Shown here one piece after another: positions 20,691 to 30,034 of a DNA stretch of 59,656 nt. A program made the position numbers and the translations under genes. Location: assembly GCA_021793275.1 (NCBI GenBank), contig JAJYTC010000004.1, positions 1-59,656 on the forward strand. The letters run 5' to 3'. The DNA is from Deltaproteobacteria bacterium (lineage in GTDB: Bacteria > Desulfobacterota > Syntrophobacteria > Syntrophobacterales > Syntrophobacteraceae). The number at the start of each line of letters is the position of its first letter. The first letter of the stretch is position 1. Under the pieces are notes generated by a model, which worked only from the letters and a program-made list of their open reading frames with translations, did not search any database and was not told the DNA's origin.

Positions 20691-22106
20691 TCACCCCACC
20701 CTGCCGGGCCCAATCCCCTGATCCCTCAAGGCCGGGAGGTCCCGGGCGTCGATTCCGTGCTTTTTCATGCGATGCCAGACGGTAACGCGGTTCACGCCAA
20801 GAATCCGCGCGGCCCGGGTCTGATTGCCGCCGCATTTGACGAGGGCGTCGATGAGGGCGGCCTTCTCATTGGAAAGGGGCGCCGTCGTATCCTGAAAGGC
20901 ACTTTCGCGGCTTCGAATGGAATTTTTTATACGAACCGGCAGGTGTTCGGGAGATATAGCCCCTTTTTCGGCAAGGACAAAGGCGTACTCGAGGGCGCCC
21001 CTTAGCTCCCTTACATTTCCGGGCCAGTGATAATTCATGAAAAGGTCCATCGTACGGGCGTCAGGGCCCGAGACCTGCCTGCCGCCGCCCTCGCGCAGCA
21101 ACCGGATAAAATGCTCGACGAGAAGAGGGATGTCTTCCAACCGCTCCCTTAGCGGCGGCAAATGGATTGGAATGATATTGATGCGAAAGAACAAATCCTG
21201 CCTGAATTTACCCTCGGCGGCCAATCGATCGAGATCCCTGTTGGTAGCGGTTATGATGCGCACGTCGGTATTTATGGGCCGAAGGTCCCCCACGCGCTCG
21301 AACTGCTTGGTCTCGAGGACCCTCAGAAGCTTTACCTGCATGGAAAGAGGAATATCGCCGATCTCATCGAGGAAAATGTCCCCGCCGTGGGCGGCCTCGA
21401 AGCGTCCTTTCCGGTGCGTGTGGGCCCCGGTAAAAGCCCCCTTGACGTGGCCGAACAGTTCGCTTTCGAGAAGGGATTCGTTCAGGGCCGCGCAGTTCAG
21501 TTGAATATAGGGACCGTTTCGCCGGCTTCCGAGATCGTGGATGGCGCGGGCAACGAGTTCTTTTCCCGTACCGGTTTCGCCGAAAATGATGACGGGCGCC
21601 TCGCTCTGGGCGGCCTTTGCGATTATTTCGAAAACCCTTTGCATTCCCGCAGATTGGCCGATAAGCCCATGAAAGGTTGACCTGCCGTCCAGAAGCCTCG
21701 AGAGCTGCCAGATCTTTTCGTCTCGCTCCCTGATGCCGGTAATGTCGGTAAACGTTTCGACCGCGGCCACAACATTACCGTCCATATCCTTTAGAAGAGA
21801 GGCGTTTTTTAGCACGGGGGCATAGAAGCCGCTCTTTCGCAGGATCGAACAGGGTTTTTTGTGGGCATGGCCGAGATTAAAGAGCTGGCACCAGCGCCCG
21901 CCCGCATCCGCCCTGGCCTTTTCGCACGCGTCGCAGTGGAAGATCGAACAGGGGCTTCCGATGAGTTCGTCCCGGGAGTAGCCGGTGATCTCCTCCATGG
22001 CGCGATTGACCATGAGAATGGCCCCGTCGGGCGAGATAATGGTGATCGCATCGTTCATCGTGTTGATGATCTCTTTTAGAAACCGGTTGATCTCCTGTTC
22101 GTACAT
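20691..22106 (-). CDS. sigma-54-dependent activator with Cys-rich PAS sensor
   Basis: A 471-residue enhancer-binding protein. An N-terminal PAS domain (about 10-125) contains five Cys (C53, C58, C61, C73, C86) spaced like a metal or cluster site. The AAA+ domain has Walker A GETGTGKE (176-183), the sigma-54 contact loop GAFTGA (223-228) and FLDEIGD. A Fis-type helix-turn-helix ends the protein ([20 protein letters not shown]). It is divergent from the tusA/hdrA operon, whose promoter is of sigma-54 type, and overlapping palindromes lie just upstream of its own start. It almost certainly controls that operon; the signal may be redox or sulfur. Confidence 0.94.
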
Positions 22107-22300: not shown

Positions 22301-22810
22301 ATGAAACCGGATAAGACGCTCGATCTTTGCGGCGTGTTCCATCCCTACGGCCTGATTTTGTGCAAGGCGACCCTGGCTTCGATGCAGCAGGGCGGCACAC
22401 TCGAGATTTGCATAAGGGACCCGGAGGCGACCAAGGACCTGCTGACCATACTCGACCGTTCGGGAGAAGTTCTTCTGGAAAGTGAAAAGCGCGGCGACCG
22501 TTTCCATCTGCTTGTCCGAAAATGCTCGGTCTCAATTCAACCAAAGGAGAAAAAGATGTCGAACATCGATCTTAATTCAATCAGTCCCGCGAGTTCGGTT
22601 GACGCAAGGGGCAGCGCATGCCCGGGGCCGCTTCTTGAAGCGAAGAAGGGCATCGGCAAGGTCAAGGTCGGACAAGTGCTGGAAGTCCTATCCAATGACA
22701 CCGGCACAAGAAACGATCTTCCGATCTGGGCGGCCAAAGTCGGGCACGAATTCCTGGGCTTTGTCAGCATGGACGGCTATGACAAACTCTTCATCGTGAG
22801 AAAAAAGTGA
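22301..22810 (+). CDS. tandem TusA-family sulfur carrier fusion
   Basis: One frame of 169 residues holds two TusA-like domains. TusA proteins carry sulfur as a persulfide on a Cys in a CPxP motif. The second domain has it (SACPGP, C107); the first (residues 1-80) has HPYG at that place and lacks the catalytic Cys. An internal ATG at 22556 (residue 86), with AAGGAG 6 bases upstream, could start the second domain alone. The gene may thus give a fusion and a free carrier. It is first in the sigma-54 operon and overlaps the next gene by 4 bases. Confidence 0.85.
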   Translation: MKPDKTLDLCGVFHPYGLILCKATLASMQQGGTLEICIRDPEATKDLLTILDRSGEVLLESEKRGDRFHLLVRKCSVSIQPKEKKMSNIDLNSISPASSVDARGSACPGPLLEAKKGIGKVKVGQVLEVLSNDTGTRNDLPIWAAKVGHEFLGFVSMDGYDKLFIVRKK

Positions 22811-23259
22811 ATAAAACCGGGAAAATCCTCATTCTGGCGACCGAGAGTTGCGCTTACCCGGGGGCAAATGCGGTGGGGCAGGCGCATTCGAGCTATCCGG
22901 CCAACACCTATATCCTCAGGGTGAGAGCGCCGGTCCTTTTCCCCGAGCGGTTCTATCTGGAGTGCTTCGAGAAGGGCATATGGGGCGTAATCATCATGTC
23001 GTGCGGCGTGGAATGTCCCTATCACGGGGCCTATGAAGCGCTTGCAAAGAGAATGGACCGCGTTTTCGCCATGATGAAGCAACGTGGACTCGATACCCAA
23101 AGGCTGCGGCTGACGTCGATCTGCACGGTCTGCACACGCTCTTTTTTAAAGGAGGTCCAGCAGATGAACGAGATCATCACGAAGCTCGGGCCTCCGGGAG
23201 CCGAACGGGCTCGGGCGGGCATTCCCGGACAAAACGGTGTCATGGCTTCGGGAGGCTGA
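22807..23259 (+). CDS. MvhD-like hydrogenase iron-sulfur subunit
   Basis: A 150-residue protein of the MvhD/VhuD family, which passes electrons between a hydrogenase or other donor and HdrA. It has ESCAYPGANAVGQ near the N-terminus, SCGVECPYHGAYEA in the middle and SICTVCTRSF near the C-terminus. The Cys positions resemble MvhD but the first pair is reduced to one Cys, so it is a divergent member. The GTG start overlaps the TusA-fusion stop (GTGA). Two HdrA genes follow directly, making a soluble MvhD-HdrA module likely. Confidence 0.82.
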   Translation: MNKTGKILILATESCAYPGANAVGQAHSSYPANTYILRVRAPVLFPERFYLECFEKGIWGVIIMSCGVECPYHGAYEALAKRMDRVFAMMKQRGLDTQRLRLTSICTVCTRSFLKEVQQMNEIITKLGPPGAERARAGIPGQNGVMASGG

Positions 23260-24543: not shown

Positions 24544-26504
24544 TCATGGCTGGTGAGAACGAATACGGAAAAGAAGGCGCAGCCGGCAGGCGCAAAGTCG
24601 GCGTCTATGTGTGCCACTGCGGTGGAAACATTTCAGACCACGTCGACGTTGGGGAGGTGTGCCGGAGGATCGAGAAGATTCCCGGCGTGACGTCGGTACA
24701 AAACAACGTGTTCATGTGCTCCGATCCCGGACAGGAACTCATAATGAAAGACATAAGGAGCGGGGCCGCAGACCGTGTCGTGGTGGCGTCCTGCGCCCCC
24801 AATCTTCACGAGGCGACTTTTCGAAACGCGATTTCCCGGGCCGGGGGAAACCCCTATATCTACGAACATGCCAATATCCGCGAACAGGTGAGCTGGGTCC
24901 ATCACGGCGCGGCCGCAACGGAAAAGGCCATCCGCCTTATCGCCGCGGCAGCCGCCAAGGCCGAACGGCTGGAACCCCTGACCCCCATTCGGCTGGAGGC
25001 GCTAAGACACGCAACGGTCGTCGGCGGAGGCATCGCAGGGCTCAAGGCGGCAATAGACCTGGCAAAGCGCGGGGTCGAGGTAGCGATCATCGAAACCTCG
25101 CCTTTTCTTGGCGGGCGCGCGGCCCAACTGGACCGGCTGGCCCCGTCGGGGGAAAGCGCAGCGCAGGTTATCTCGGAGCTTGCCGGGCGGGTCCTTAACC
25201 ATAAGTCCATCACCGTTCATACATGCGCCCGAATCCGCACATATCAGGGGTATATTGGAAATTTCAGGATCGGGATCGGAAGAGAGGCTCCCGGCGGCAG
25301 CGGGGAGTGGAATGAAAGCGGGAAGAAGGACAAGCCGGCTCCGGCCCGCGGCGAGTTCGTTCCCTTTGCGGGAGTATATGCGGGCGAGGTTTTGGAGATA
25401 CCGGAAGAATTTTCGATCGATACCGGGATAATTCTTCTTGCGACGGGTTTCAAACCTTATGAGCCAAGGCGCGGCGAGTACGGCTACAAGGAATTCGAAG
25501 GGGTGGTAACGCTTCCCGAATTCATAAAGATGCTCGCCCTGGCGGGGCGAGGCGGTGACACCCTGGAGATAGGCGGCAGGCAAATAAAGAGCGTGGCGAT
25601 GATCCACTGCGTCGGCAGCCGGATGATCCCCGGGATACACGAAGAGGACGAAAACGGCCGGCTGAACGAGTATTGTTCGAGGACCTGCTGCACGGCGACC
25701 CTCCAGACGGCGACCACCATTCGCAAGACCTGGCCCCGAACGAACGTGTTCGAATTCTACCGCGACATCAGGACTTACGGACGCGGCCAGGAGGAGCTTT
25801 ACGCGGAGGCGGCCCGCGCGAGTGTGATGTTTTTGCGCTTCGACCCGGAAGAGCCTCCGGTGGTCGGGAAAAGCGAGGATAATGACGGCTATGCGCTGTA
25901 TGCGCGGGTGAAGGATAAATTGACCTTCGGCGAGGAGATCCTGGCGCCGGTGGACCTGGTGGTGCTTTCGGCGGGCATGGAGCCAAACGATGTTTCCGAT
26001 ATGGTCGCTATGATGAAGCTGCCTGTCGGGGCCGACAGGTTCCTGCAGGAAGTTCACCCGAAGCTGAGGCCAGTCGAGCTTTCCGTTGCCGGCATTCTTC
26101 TGGCCGGGACCTGTCAGGCGCCGATGGACACGGGGGAAGCGTGCGCGGCGGCTTCGGCCGCCGCCGTCAAGGCGTCGGCCGTCCTTTCCCGCGGCTATGT
26201 CGAACTCGACCCGTTCGTAGCCGAGGTCGATGGGGATAAATGCAGGGGGACCGGCGCATGTGTGCAAGCATGCCTTAAAGAAGGCGCTTTGGAGCTGGTC
26301 GAAACCCTCGATGGGGGTGAAAAGGCCCTCAGGGCGCAGGTCAATGCGGCCTTCTGCATCGGGTGCGGCGCCTGCGCGGCGGTTTGCCCCGAAGGGGCAA
26401 TAAACGTCAAAGGCTGGACGCTTAACCAGTACGAAGCGATGCTCGACGCCATCGTTTCCGACGATTTGTTTGAAGAGGAGCGGCCGCATGCAACAGCAGG
26501 ATGA
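24540..26504 (+). CDS. hdrA: HdrA-like FAD/iron-sulfur protein, long form
   Basis: A 654-residue HdrA with the N-terminal cluster domain (VCHCGGNISD, C25 and C27; FMCSDPGQ; SCAPNLHEATFR), FAD motif GGGIAG at 162-167, then CVGSR and EYCSRTCC. The C-terminal ferredoxin has one complete motif, CIGCGACAAVCP (C606-C616). The preceding motif CRGTGACVQAC has Thr571 where the second Cys is expected, so that site may hold a 3Fe-4S cluster or none. It overlaps the short hdrA by 4 bases and the winged-helix gene by 17. Paired with the short HdrA it probably forms a heteromeric electron-transfer unit. Confidence 0.92.
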   Translation: MIMAGENEYGKEGAAGRRKVGVYVCHCGGNISDHVDVGEVCRRIEKIPGVTSVQNNVFMCSDPGQELIMKDIRSGAADRVVVASCAPNLHEATFRNAISRAGGNPYIYEHANIREQVSWVHHGAAATEKAIRLIAAAAAKAERLEPLTPIRLEALRHATVVGGGIAGLKAAIDLAKRGVEVAIIETSPFLGGRAAQLDRLAPSGESAAQVISELAGRVLNHKSITVHTCARIRTYQGYIGNFRIGIGREAPGGSGEWNESGKKDKPAPARGEFVPFAGVYAGEVLEIPEEFSIDTGIILLATGFKPYEPRRGEYGYKEFEGVVTLPEFIKMLALAGRGGDTLEIGGRQIKSVAMIHCVGSRMIPGIHEEDENGRLNEYCSRTCCTATLQTATTIRKTWPRTNVFEFYRDIRTYGRGQEELYAEAARASVMFLRFDPEEPPVVGKSEDNDGYALYARVKDKLTFGEEILAPVDLVVLSAGMEPNDVSDMVAMMKLPVGADRFLQEVHPKLRPVELSVAGILLAGTCQAPMDTGEACAAASAAAVKASAVLSRGYVELDPFVAEVDGDKCRGTGACVQACLKEGALELVETLDGGEKALRAQVNAAFCIGCGACAAVCPEGAINVKGWTLNQYEAMLDAIVSDDLFEEERPHATAG

Positions 26505-26823
26505 GAAAAAGGCGAGGAAGGAAGCGATCAAAAAGCTTCGCGAGCTGAGAAAAGAAGCGATCGAGCGGGCTACGACCAGGATGAAGGAACAGAAAAGAAT
26601 CACCGATTCGATAAAGGCCGAGCTTCTCGGGGGAGACAAAACGGTCCCCGAGCTTTCCGCTGCCACAGGGATACCTTCGGCTTCCGTCATGTGGACGGTG
26701 GCTACACTCAAAAAATACGGGCAAGTCGTGGAAGGAGACGCTGCGGCAAGTTATTTCAGATACAGGCTCGCAGCGGGTGGAAAGGCCGAGGAGGCCGGGC
26801 GTGAGGCGCCAGGCGAATCTTGA
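26488..26823 (+). CDS. small coiled-coil/winged-helix protein in the hdr operon
   Basis: A 111-residue protein. The N-terminal half is a charged helix (EKKARKEAIKKLRELRKEAI). The second half looks like a winged helix-turn-helix (TVPELSAATGIPSASVMWTV, then ATLKKYGQVVEG). GAGGAG precedes the ATG, which lies inside the end of the long hdrA gene, so translation is coupled. It could be a local regulator or a structural part of the complex; sequence alone does not decide. Confidence 0.75.
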   Translation: MQQQDEKKARKEAIKKLRELRKEAIERATTRMKEQKRITDSIKAELLGGDKTVPELSAATGIPSASVMWTVATLKKYGQVVEGDAAASYFRYRLAAGGKAEEAGREAPGES

Positions 26824-26926
26824 GTTTTGAGCGCCCGGTTTTGAGCGGCTGGTTCCATTGTTTTAAACAAAAATGTTGTGCAAGAAGCTTTAAAACGGCT
26901 GATTGTAAAACACGGAGGAGAGCACT

Positions 26927-27295
26927 ATGCCTGAAAAGGAAAAGATCGTCTACATTGTAACCCATGGTGGAGAGGACCCCGACAGGGCCACCTTTCCCTT
27001 CATGCTTGCCACGGCTGCGCAAACGATGGACGTGGAAACCGTCGTGACGCTCCAGGGTTCGGGCGTCTACCTGGCGCAAAAGGGCTACCTGGATCATGTC
27101 AATGCCGCGGGGCTACCGCCGCTAAAAGGCCTGGTCGACACATTCCTAAACGAGGGCGGGCAGCTTCTTGTCTGTATTCCCTGAATACGGCAGCGTAAGA
27201 TCGCTGAAAGCGATCTCATTGAAGGCGCGAGTCCGACGATGGCGGCCAATTTGAACCAGCACATTCTCTCGGCCAACTCCACTTTGGTTTACTAG
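26927..27295 (+). CDS. selenocysteine-containing DsrE-family protein (UGA readthrough)
   Basis: DsrE-family proteins accept and transfer sulfane sulfur, often with TusA. A plain reading stops at TGA 27182-27184 after 85 residues. The frame then continues for 36 codons with family-like sequence (IRQRKIAESDLIEGA, ending NSTLVY) to a TAG at 27293. The TGA sits where relatives have Cys, giving the redox motif Cys83-Ile-Pro-Sec86. A stem of 8 perfect pairs with a GAA loop starts 13 bases after the UGA. Full length is 122 residues, normal for the family. GGAGGAG precedes the ATG. A conventional gene caller would truncate it. Confidence 0.88.
27198..27216 (+). promoter_or_regulatory. candidate bacterial SECIS element (DsrE)
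   Basis: AGATCGCT-GAA-AGCGATCT forms an 8-pair stem with a 3-base loop that begins with G. Twenty-one bases separate the UGA from the loop, within the range known for bacterial SECIS elements, which recruit SelB to insert Sec. Confidence 0.82.
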
Positions 27296-27313: not shown

Positions 27314-27823
27314 ATGGATATGATGGAAAACGCTGCGCGCGAGCCGGCTGCGCCATTTGACGGCAAGACAATTCTACTTTTTTCCGACGATCTGGACAAA
27401 GCGCTTGCCGCGCTCGTCATCGCCAACGGCGCCGCGGCAATGGACAGTCCGGTCACCATCTTTTTTGCCTTCTGGGGGTTGAACATTTTGCGAAAGCAGG
27501 CGACTCGAAAAGGAAAGGACCTGCTGTCCAGGATGTTCGGATTTATGATGCCCAAAGGCTCGGAAAAACTCAAGCTCTCCAAGCTCCACATGATGGGGAT
27601 GGGCACCACGATGATGAAGCAAGTAATGAGGAAGAAAAATGTAAAGCTCCTCCCCGACCTGATCGCCGCAGCAAAGGATGCCGGGGTGCGATTCCTGGCC
27701 TGTTCGATGTCCATGGACGTCATGGGGATCTGTAAAGAAGAGATGATAGACGGCGTCGAGGTGGGCGGGGTCGCCACCTTCCTCGGCGCTGCGGAAAAAT
27801 CCAACATGACCCTGTTCATCTGA
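27314..27823 (+). CDS. DsrE/DsrF/DrsH-like protein (DsrE2 type)
   Basis: A 169-residue protein of the DsrE2-like group, with an ILLFSDDLDKALAALVIANG start, a hydrophobic PVTIFFAFWGLNIL stretch and a Met-rich middle (LHMMGMGTTMMKQVM). A Cys in FLACSMSMDVMGI is the likely sulfur-binding residue. It may associate with the membrane. It starts 18 bases after the TAG of the Sec DsrE and is probably last in the operon, giving TusA, DsrE and DsrE2 in one transcript. A large inverted repeat follows the gene. Confidence 0.87.
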   Translation: MDMMENAAREPAAPFDGKTILLFSDDLDKALAALVIANGAAAMDSPVTIFFAFWGLNILRKQATRKGKDLLSRMFGFMMPKGSEKLKLSKLHMMGMGTTMMKQVMRKKNVKLLPDLIAAAKDAGVRFLACSMSMDVMGICKEEMIDGVEVGGVATFLGAAEKSNMTLFI

Positions 27824-29326: not shown

Positions 29327-30034
29327 ATGAGCGAACAAGCAGGCAGTGGTTGTGTGGAACCGGCAAAAGGCCCTATTACAGGCTCTCGGGAGGAATCCGG
29401 TGGCGGCGCCGTCCCGGCAACACCCGCCATAAGCGCGCGGGTGGGGCGGCCGGCGCCGGATTTCGAGGCATCGGCTTTTATGGATGGCGGCTTCAAAAAC
29501 ATCAGGCTCTCGGACTACAGGGGCAAGTGGGTGGTCCTGTGTTTCTATCCCGGGGACTTCACCTTTGTCTGACCCACAGAATTGACGGCAGTTGCCGTTA
29601 AATACCCCGAGCTTCAAAAGAGCGGTGTCGAGGTCCTATCGGTAAGCACCGACAGCCGCTTCTCCCACAAGATCTGGCAGAGCGAGGAACTTTCTAAAAT
29701 GACGCCCGGAGGCGTGCCCTACCCCATGCTCTCCGATGCCGGCGGAGCTATCGGCAAGGTTTACGGGGTCTACGACGAGGCTTCGGGCGTCGATTTTCGC
29801 GGCCGTTTCCTGATCGACCCGGATGGAGTCATCCAGGCGATGGAGATCCTGACGCCGCCGGTTGGGCGACACGTGGGCGAACTCATCCGGCAGATCAAAG
29901 CCTTCCAGCATGTCCGGGAAACCCAGGAGGCCACTCCTTCGGGCTGGAAGCCCGGGAAGCCTACCCTCAAACCCGGTCCGGATTTGGTAGGCATGGTGTG
30001 GCAATGCTGGAAACCCGAGATGGCGGAAGACTAG
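29327..30034 (+). CDS. selenocysteine-containing peroxiredoxin (UGA readthrough)
   Basis: Peroxiredoxins reduce hydroperoxides with a peroxidatic Cys in the motif FTFVCPTEL. Here that codon is TGA (29570-29572), and the frame continues as [14 protein letters not shown] to a TAG at 30032-30034, so residue 82 is predicted Sec. A stem-loop of SECIS type follows. The 235-residue product has an unusual 45-residue Gly/Glu-rich N-terminal extension. The usual resolving Cys near the C-terminus is absent ([10 protein letters not shown] instead of a VCP form), while Cys227 in VWQCWKP could take its place. AAGGAGG precedes the ATG at 9-base spacing. Confidence 0.9.
29582..29601 (+). promoter_or_regulatory. 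candidate bacterial SECIS element (peroxiredoxin)
   Basis: TTGACGGC-AGTT-GCCGTTAA forms an 8-pair stem (one G-U) with G as second loop base. Seventeen bases separate the UGA from the loop, as in known bacterial SECIS elements. Confidence 0.8.

Follow-up and report, generated by a model that had tools for sequence, protein, structure and literature searches.

The TusA-HdrA operon and its dsrE gene

The window analysed here, a stretch of 59,656 nucleotides from a member of the Syntrophobacteraceae (contig JAJYTC010000004.1), carries genes for a TusA sulfur carrier, an FlpD/MvhD-like subunit, two HdrA-like subunits, a small winged-helix-like protein, a DsrE-like protein whose frame contains a TGA codon, and a DsrE2-type protein (Table 1). 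The gene order TusA-FlpD-HdrA-HdrA-wHTH-(HdrC-HdrB)-DsrE is conserved in relatives from several families. Most of these relatives have room between the winged-helix gene and dsrE and, where inspected, this space was found to be filled by HdrC-like and HdrB-like (CCG domain) genes. Neither of the latter two genes is present at positions 26823-26927 of the window or at this place in the sister G004 (as compared with L086, L088 and L078), and the window possesses a DsrE2 gene. A preceding sequence-only reading had placed dsrE within a TusA-HdrA operon, and TusA, FlpD and two HdrA-like genes are indeed located upstream on the same strand. It had also considered such a placement to be less usual, a view that does not hold, since the same TusA/FlpD/HdrA setting occurs in many genomes of the phylum, some of which carry a DsrE with selenocysteine (Sec) in a UxxC motif.

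The host is predicted to be a dissimilator of the sulfite/sulfate type, based on the presence of a dsrA-family gene scoring above cut-off in its genome. With regard to the neighbourhood of the operon, a PAS/sigma-54-type regulator is encoded beside it (20691-22106, reverse strand), and at least two relatives likewise have such a regulator close to dsrE (L078, 43-1260; L086, 7913-9283). According to Pfam, the TusA gene contains two TusA-like stretches, the first of which is possibly degenerate.

Table 1. Coordinates of the operon genes, the in-frame TGA, the putative bSECIS hairpin and the second predicted selenoprotein gene in the window.
Feature	Position	Strand	Evidence and remarks
TusA sulfur carrier	22301..22810	+	Pfam TusA E=2.5e-30, TusA domain 100-165; syntenic in relatives
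FlpD/MvhD-like electron-transfer subunit	22807..23259	+	Pfam FlpD E=3.8e-21; syntenic
HdrA-like flavin/Fe-S subunit, 426 aa	23263..24543	+	NF040770 440 bits, well below the cut-off for true HdrA2 (1100 bits)
Second HdrA-like subunit, 654 aa	24540..26504	+	NF040770 489 bits, likewise well below that cut-off
Small winged-helix-like protein	26470..26823	+	Conserved in synteny; homologue L088 matches HTH_5 (ArsR) weakly, E=5.5e-5
dsrE-like gene, predicted selenoprotein	26927..27295	+	122 aa, C83-I-P-U86; ORF, Pfam, homologue alignments
In-frame TGA, predicted to be read as selenocysteine (U86)	27182..27184	+	Cys (TGC/TGT) there in all full-length close homologues
Putative bSECIS hairpin	27198..27216	+	8 bp, GAA loop
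DsrE2-type protein	27314..27823	+	Pfam DrsE_2 E=1.4e-57; NF047629 below cut-off
PrxU peroxiredoxin, second predicted Sec gene, outside the operon	29330..30034	+	TGA 29570-29572 (TFVU); NF040737 378 bits, cut-off 270

The dsrE reading frame continues past the TGA codon

The ATG at 26927, which is preceded by a strong ribosome-binding site (GGAGG), is in frame with the TGA, and the latter is followed by 36 sense codons and a TAG stop (27293-27295). The Pfam DsrE domain (PF02635) was matched at E=4e-16 (59.6 bits against a cut-off of 22.7) over residues 6-121, thus spanning the TGA. Homologues from the same genus and beyond align with the product over residues 1-122, and all have Cys in the TGA column. 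The codon is TGT in the closest homologue (L019, also L074, contig JAKAJS010000182.1), an 86%-identical congener, and a scan of genome contigs for dsrE relatives retrieved two, both with Cys. The CxxU form of the window is a single instance on its branch, its sister in the same genus possessing Cys. When compared with L019, the dN/dS ratio is approximately 0.15 on either side of the TGA, with dN 0.077 and dS 0.502 over the 85 codons before it, and dN 0.057 and dS 0.377 over the 36 codons after it.

The Pfam match across the TGA, the full-length Cys homologues and the equal dN/dS ratios on both sides place read-through of dsrE far beyond chance, and the TGA is very probably decoded as Sec. The sequence-only reading of this gene as a DsrE-family selenoprotein with a Cys-Ile-Pro-Sec motif and family-like codons beyond the TGA is hence sustained. 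The outcome that it had named as counting against the claim, namely that all homologues would end at the position of residue 85, did not occur, the nearest homologues being full length. If the TGA is annotated as a stop, the gene is truncated at residue 85 and the active residue is missed.

A putative bSECIS hairpin follows the TGA

Bacterial SECIS (bSECIS) elements are recognised as hairpins located shortly past the UGA with an apical loop starting with G. The dsrE hairpin fits this description: its stem pairs 27198-27205 with 27209-27216 through eight Watson-Crick pairs, and the GAA loop begins 21 nt past the TGA, as the sequence-only reading had noticed. When the 54-nt segment was folded as a whole, the shuffle z-score was -1.3, which is weak as proof of a SECIS, and tests specific to the geometry were therefore employed. 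When the 20 residues past the TGA were recoded synonymously 20,000 times, 1.5% of the recodings gave an equally stable hairpin of SECIS geometry, while an equally good one was found in 3.9% of random operon codon strings and at 79 of 1532 codon positions of the operon genes. By itself, the hairpin is thus only moderately unusual, representing about a 1-in-70 event, and constitutes moderate evidence. The hairpin of the same geometry measures -9.5 kcal/mol in the window as against -6.2 kcal/mol in the best Cys homologue. In L019 the stem comprises 6 bp, and a two-base change in the window (GAG to GCT) extends it to 8 bp.

Selenocysteine machinery and a second predicted Sec gene

The genome was searched for the sel genes, and the tRNA-Sec gene (selC, anticodon TCA), SelA (618 bits) and SelD (379 bits, with an in-frame TGA of its own in the motif GUAAK) were all found. 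SelB was represented by fragments at contig ends, none of which alone scored above the family cut-off. These SelB-like pieces comprise L009 and L010 (G000 C235:3-914 and C226:3-698), L012 and L016, and two contigs start with a similar stretch. Their location at contig ends suggests that the genome probably does have a selB gene, broken up by the assembly. SelA was present in all 15 genomes checked, with either Cys or Sec in DsrE, and its absence therefore does not explain why the DsrE of the sister species has Cys. A genome-wide reassignment of TGA was rejected, since six other operon genes (TusA, FlpD, both HdrA, wHTH and DsrE2) end normally at TGA.

Among the TGA-interrupted open reading frames of the window, which were judged by eye, only DsrE and the peroxiredoxin PrxU could be recognised as homologues that extend beyond the TGA. 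The PrxU gene, approximately 2 kb downstream of dsrE, has a hairpin of 8 bp with an AGTT loop 17 nt past its TGA. It had no match in three relatives of the same genus (E<=1e-20), and in the other genomes where PrxU was found it lies far from DsrE or on a different contig.

The probable Sec occupies the second position of the motif

The sequence-only reading had proposed that selenium would be at the sulfur-transfer site. The product was compared with solved structures, the best sequence match being 3MC3 (E 4.8e-10, or 1.1e-14 with a 15-sequence profile), which has been named DsrE3A of S. solfataricus (PMC4175335). Weak PDB profile matches to BURRH (4CJ9/4CJA) were discarded as repeat-protein noise. 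An AlphaFold2 model with a mean pLDDT of 97.2 also found 3MC3 as its best structural match (Z 18.7, 119 residues, rmsd 2.7), with DsrEFH and TusBCD subunits ranking lower. In the 3MC3 alignment, the established active-site Cys of DsrE is aligned with Cys83, and position 86 is opposite a Ser; the selenium is therefore placed at the second of the two redox positions. In an alignment of 47 sequences, with Sec read as Cys, position 86 is invariant and Cys83 nearly so. In the model, strand 79-83 terminates with Cys83, and residue 86 belongs to the opening turn of helix 84-89. As judged from these alignments, Sec86 is the predicted partner of the sulfur-transfer Cys83 and not the transfer residue itself, and the earlier placement of selenium is not upheld, as the transfer residue is still a Cys (PMC4175335).

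Probable Sec at either motif position in related DsrE proteins

Relatives in the DsrE subfamily of the window were found to carry the inverse motif, U-I-P-C, with Cys at position 86, in G240, G283, G361 and G323, which belong to one family, and in G206, giving five genomes in total. In the four genes of the one family, the hairpin loop begins 23 nt past codon 86, very close to its location in the window (21 nt), although the hairpin is weaker than that of the window in an ungapped scan. A paralogous subfamily has C-K-A-U in G024, G039, G050, G020 and G378, and G283 has CKAU in a DsrE copy that resembles the CKAC branch; the motif in G081 is UIPC. Second DsrE copies with CKAU and hairpins of their own were noted in L040, L047, L113, L115, L085 and L086, with L113 resembling the otherwise CKAC branch. 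In a maximum-likelihood tree of 52 proteins, well-supported branches force at least four Cys/Sec changes, two to CxxU and two to UxxC. Sec thus appears to have replaced either Cys of the DsrE motif several separate times in evolution. A further TGA, in the DsrE homologue L034 (G030)/L084 (6312-6659, reverse strand), was rejected as Sec: it aligns with Y54 of the window protein, is accompanied by no hairpin of SECIS geometry, and leaves both Cys of a CGPC motif in place. Mutation or error are among the readings of this TGA at a third cysteine position.

Sec is costly to make and is kept where redox chemistry limits the rate. The repeated change from Cys to Sec at both positions speaks for a catalytic role of each residue of the pair, and for a redox step, not a plain hand-over, in the Hdr-linked relay of sulfur in sulfite/sulfate reducers. 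We tentatively propose that DsrE proteins tied to Hdr perform CxxC dithiol or thiol-selenol redox chemistry, as opposed to passive carriage on one cysteine, that Sec would therefore have arisen on either side of the motif several times, and that the CIPU form of the window would be a recent, independent case.

A possible redox role and its alternatives

The UGA is very probably decoded by the SelABCD system of the cell together with the hairpin just 3' of it. The mechanism favoured here, although somewhat less likely than not, is that Cys83 and Sec86 form a redox pair which releases TusA-delivered sulfur to the Hdr-like complex. In such a scheme, Cys83 would take up sulfur, as a persulfide or thiosulfonate, from the TusA of the same operon, and the Sec86 selenolate would attack the Cys83-bound sulfur to create a Cys83-S-Se-Sec86 bond. 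Formation of this selenenyl sulfide would free reduced sulfur or thiosulfate, after which the FlpD-HdrA-HdrA complex might re-reduce it or, in the opposite direction, might accept electrons from the pair. The idea of a resolving bond at Sec86 derives from DsrE3A, for which an intra- or intermolecular disulfide has been proposed to power the release of thiosulfate from TusA (PMC4175335).

Sec could also be inserted into a protein that acts mainly in redox or peroxide defence, or as a selenium carrier, and not as a sulfur-transfer partner of TusA and Hdr. A CxxU motif is a typical feature of thiol redox proteins (PMC1088965) and a PrxU gene is nearby; however, PrxU is not a conserved neighbour of DsrE, while the operon with TusA, FlpD and HdrA is conserved in many genomes and the group of the closest solved relative exchanges thiosulfate with TusA (PMC4175335), for which reasons we regard such a role as unlikely. 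A CxPC gene that had recently suffered a nonsense mutation, and was now a pseudogene with an 85-residue product, would agree with the TGT of L019, one substitution away, and with the occurrence of the Sec state in one genome only on this branch. Yet the stop would have arisen exactly at the invariant redox Cys, in a genome that is equipped with Sec machinery and carries another Sec gene, without any difference between downstream and upstream dN/dS, next to a hairpin that is longer and more stable than in any Cys homologue, and in a family with Sec elsewhere at this motif; we consider it very improbable. Finally, a sequencing or assembly error, which the fragmentation of the assembly (278 contigs) might invite, is scarcely credible, as it would have to coincide with a CxxC Cys codon, a Sec-capable genome and a hairpin better than those of the relatives.

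Comparison with known DsrE proteins and selenoproteins

DsrE-like selenoproteins have been described since 2005, in the Sargasso Sea, as GOS DsrE 1 and 2, and in Desulfovibrio vulgaris, in agreement with the sequence-only reading (PMC1088965, PMC2398784, PMC1794560, PMC13188914). Like the protein of the window, these possess a Pfam DsrE domain, Sec in place of a Cys of a CxxC-type motif, and a SECIS-like hairpin. However, their motif, where given in surveys and reviews, is UxxC (PMC1088965, PMC2398784, PMC9312934, PMC13188914), whereas the window has CxxU, with Sec at the second cysteine. A literature search, limited largely to openly readable papers, found no published CxxU DsrE selenoprotein. 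DsrE selenoproteins as such are therefore known, and what appears to be new is the CxxU arrangement, the apparently separate rise of Sec at either side of the motif, and the location in an Hdr operon.

The DsrE3A proteins of the Sulfolobales (3MC3; Metallosphaera cuprina) resemble the window protein in sequence and fold, in the alignment of their first Cys with Cys83, and in their location near TusA, DsrE2 and Hdr-like genes. They differ in having a Cys-X7-Cys motif and no Sec, where the window has Cys-X2-Sec, and in having dihydrolipoamide dehydrogenase as a neighbour, the Hdr part of the window being FlpD-HdrA-HdrA (PMC4175335). DsrEFH of types I and II (A. vinosum; cable bacteria), the second of which occurs in sulfate reducers, share the fold and the TusA-linked transfer at one DsrE cysteine (PMC13293266). 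In contrast to these systems, the window combines a single dsrE and a single dsrE2 with Hdr-like neighbours, without adjacent DsrF or DsrH, and has a predicted Sec.

Selenoproteins of the CxxU type are known among HdrA and FrhD/MvhD, the same electron-transfer families as the HdrA and FlpD of the window operon. The HdrA and FlpD genes of the window, however, are devoid of in-frame TGA, and it is DsrE that carries the predicted Sec.
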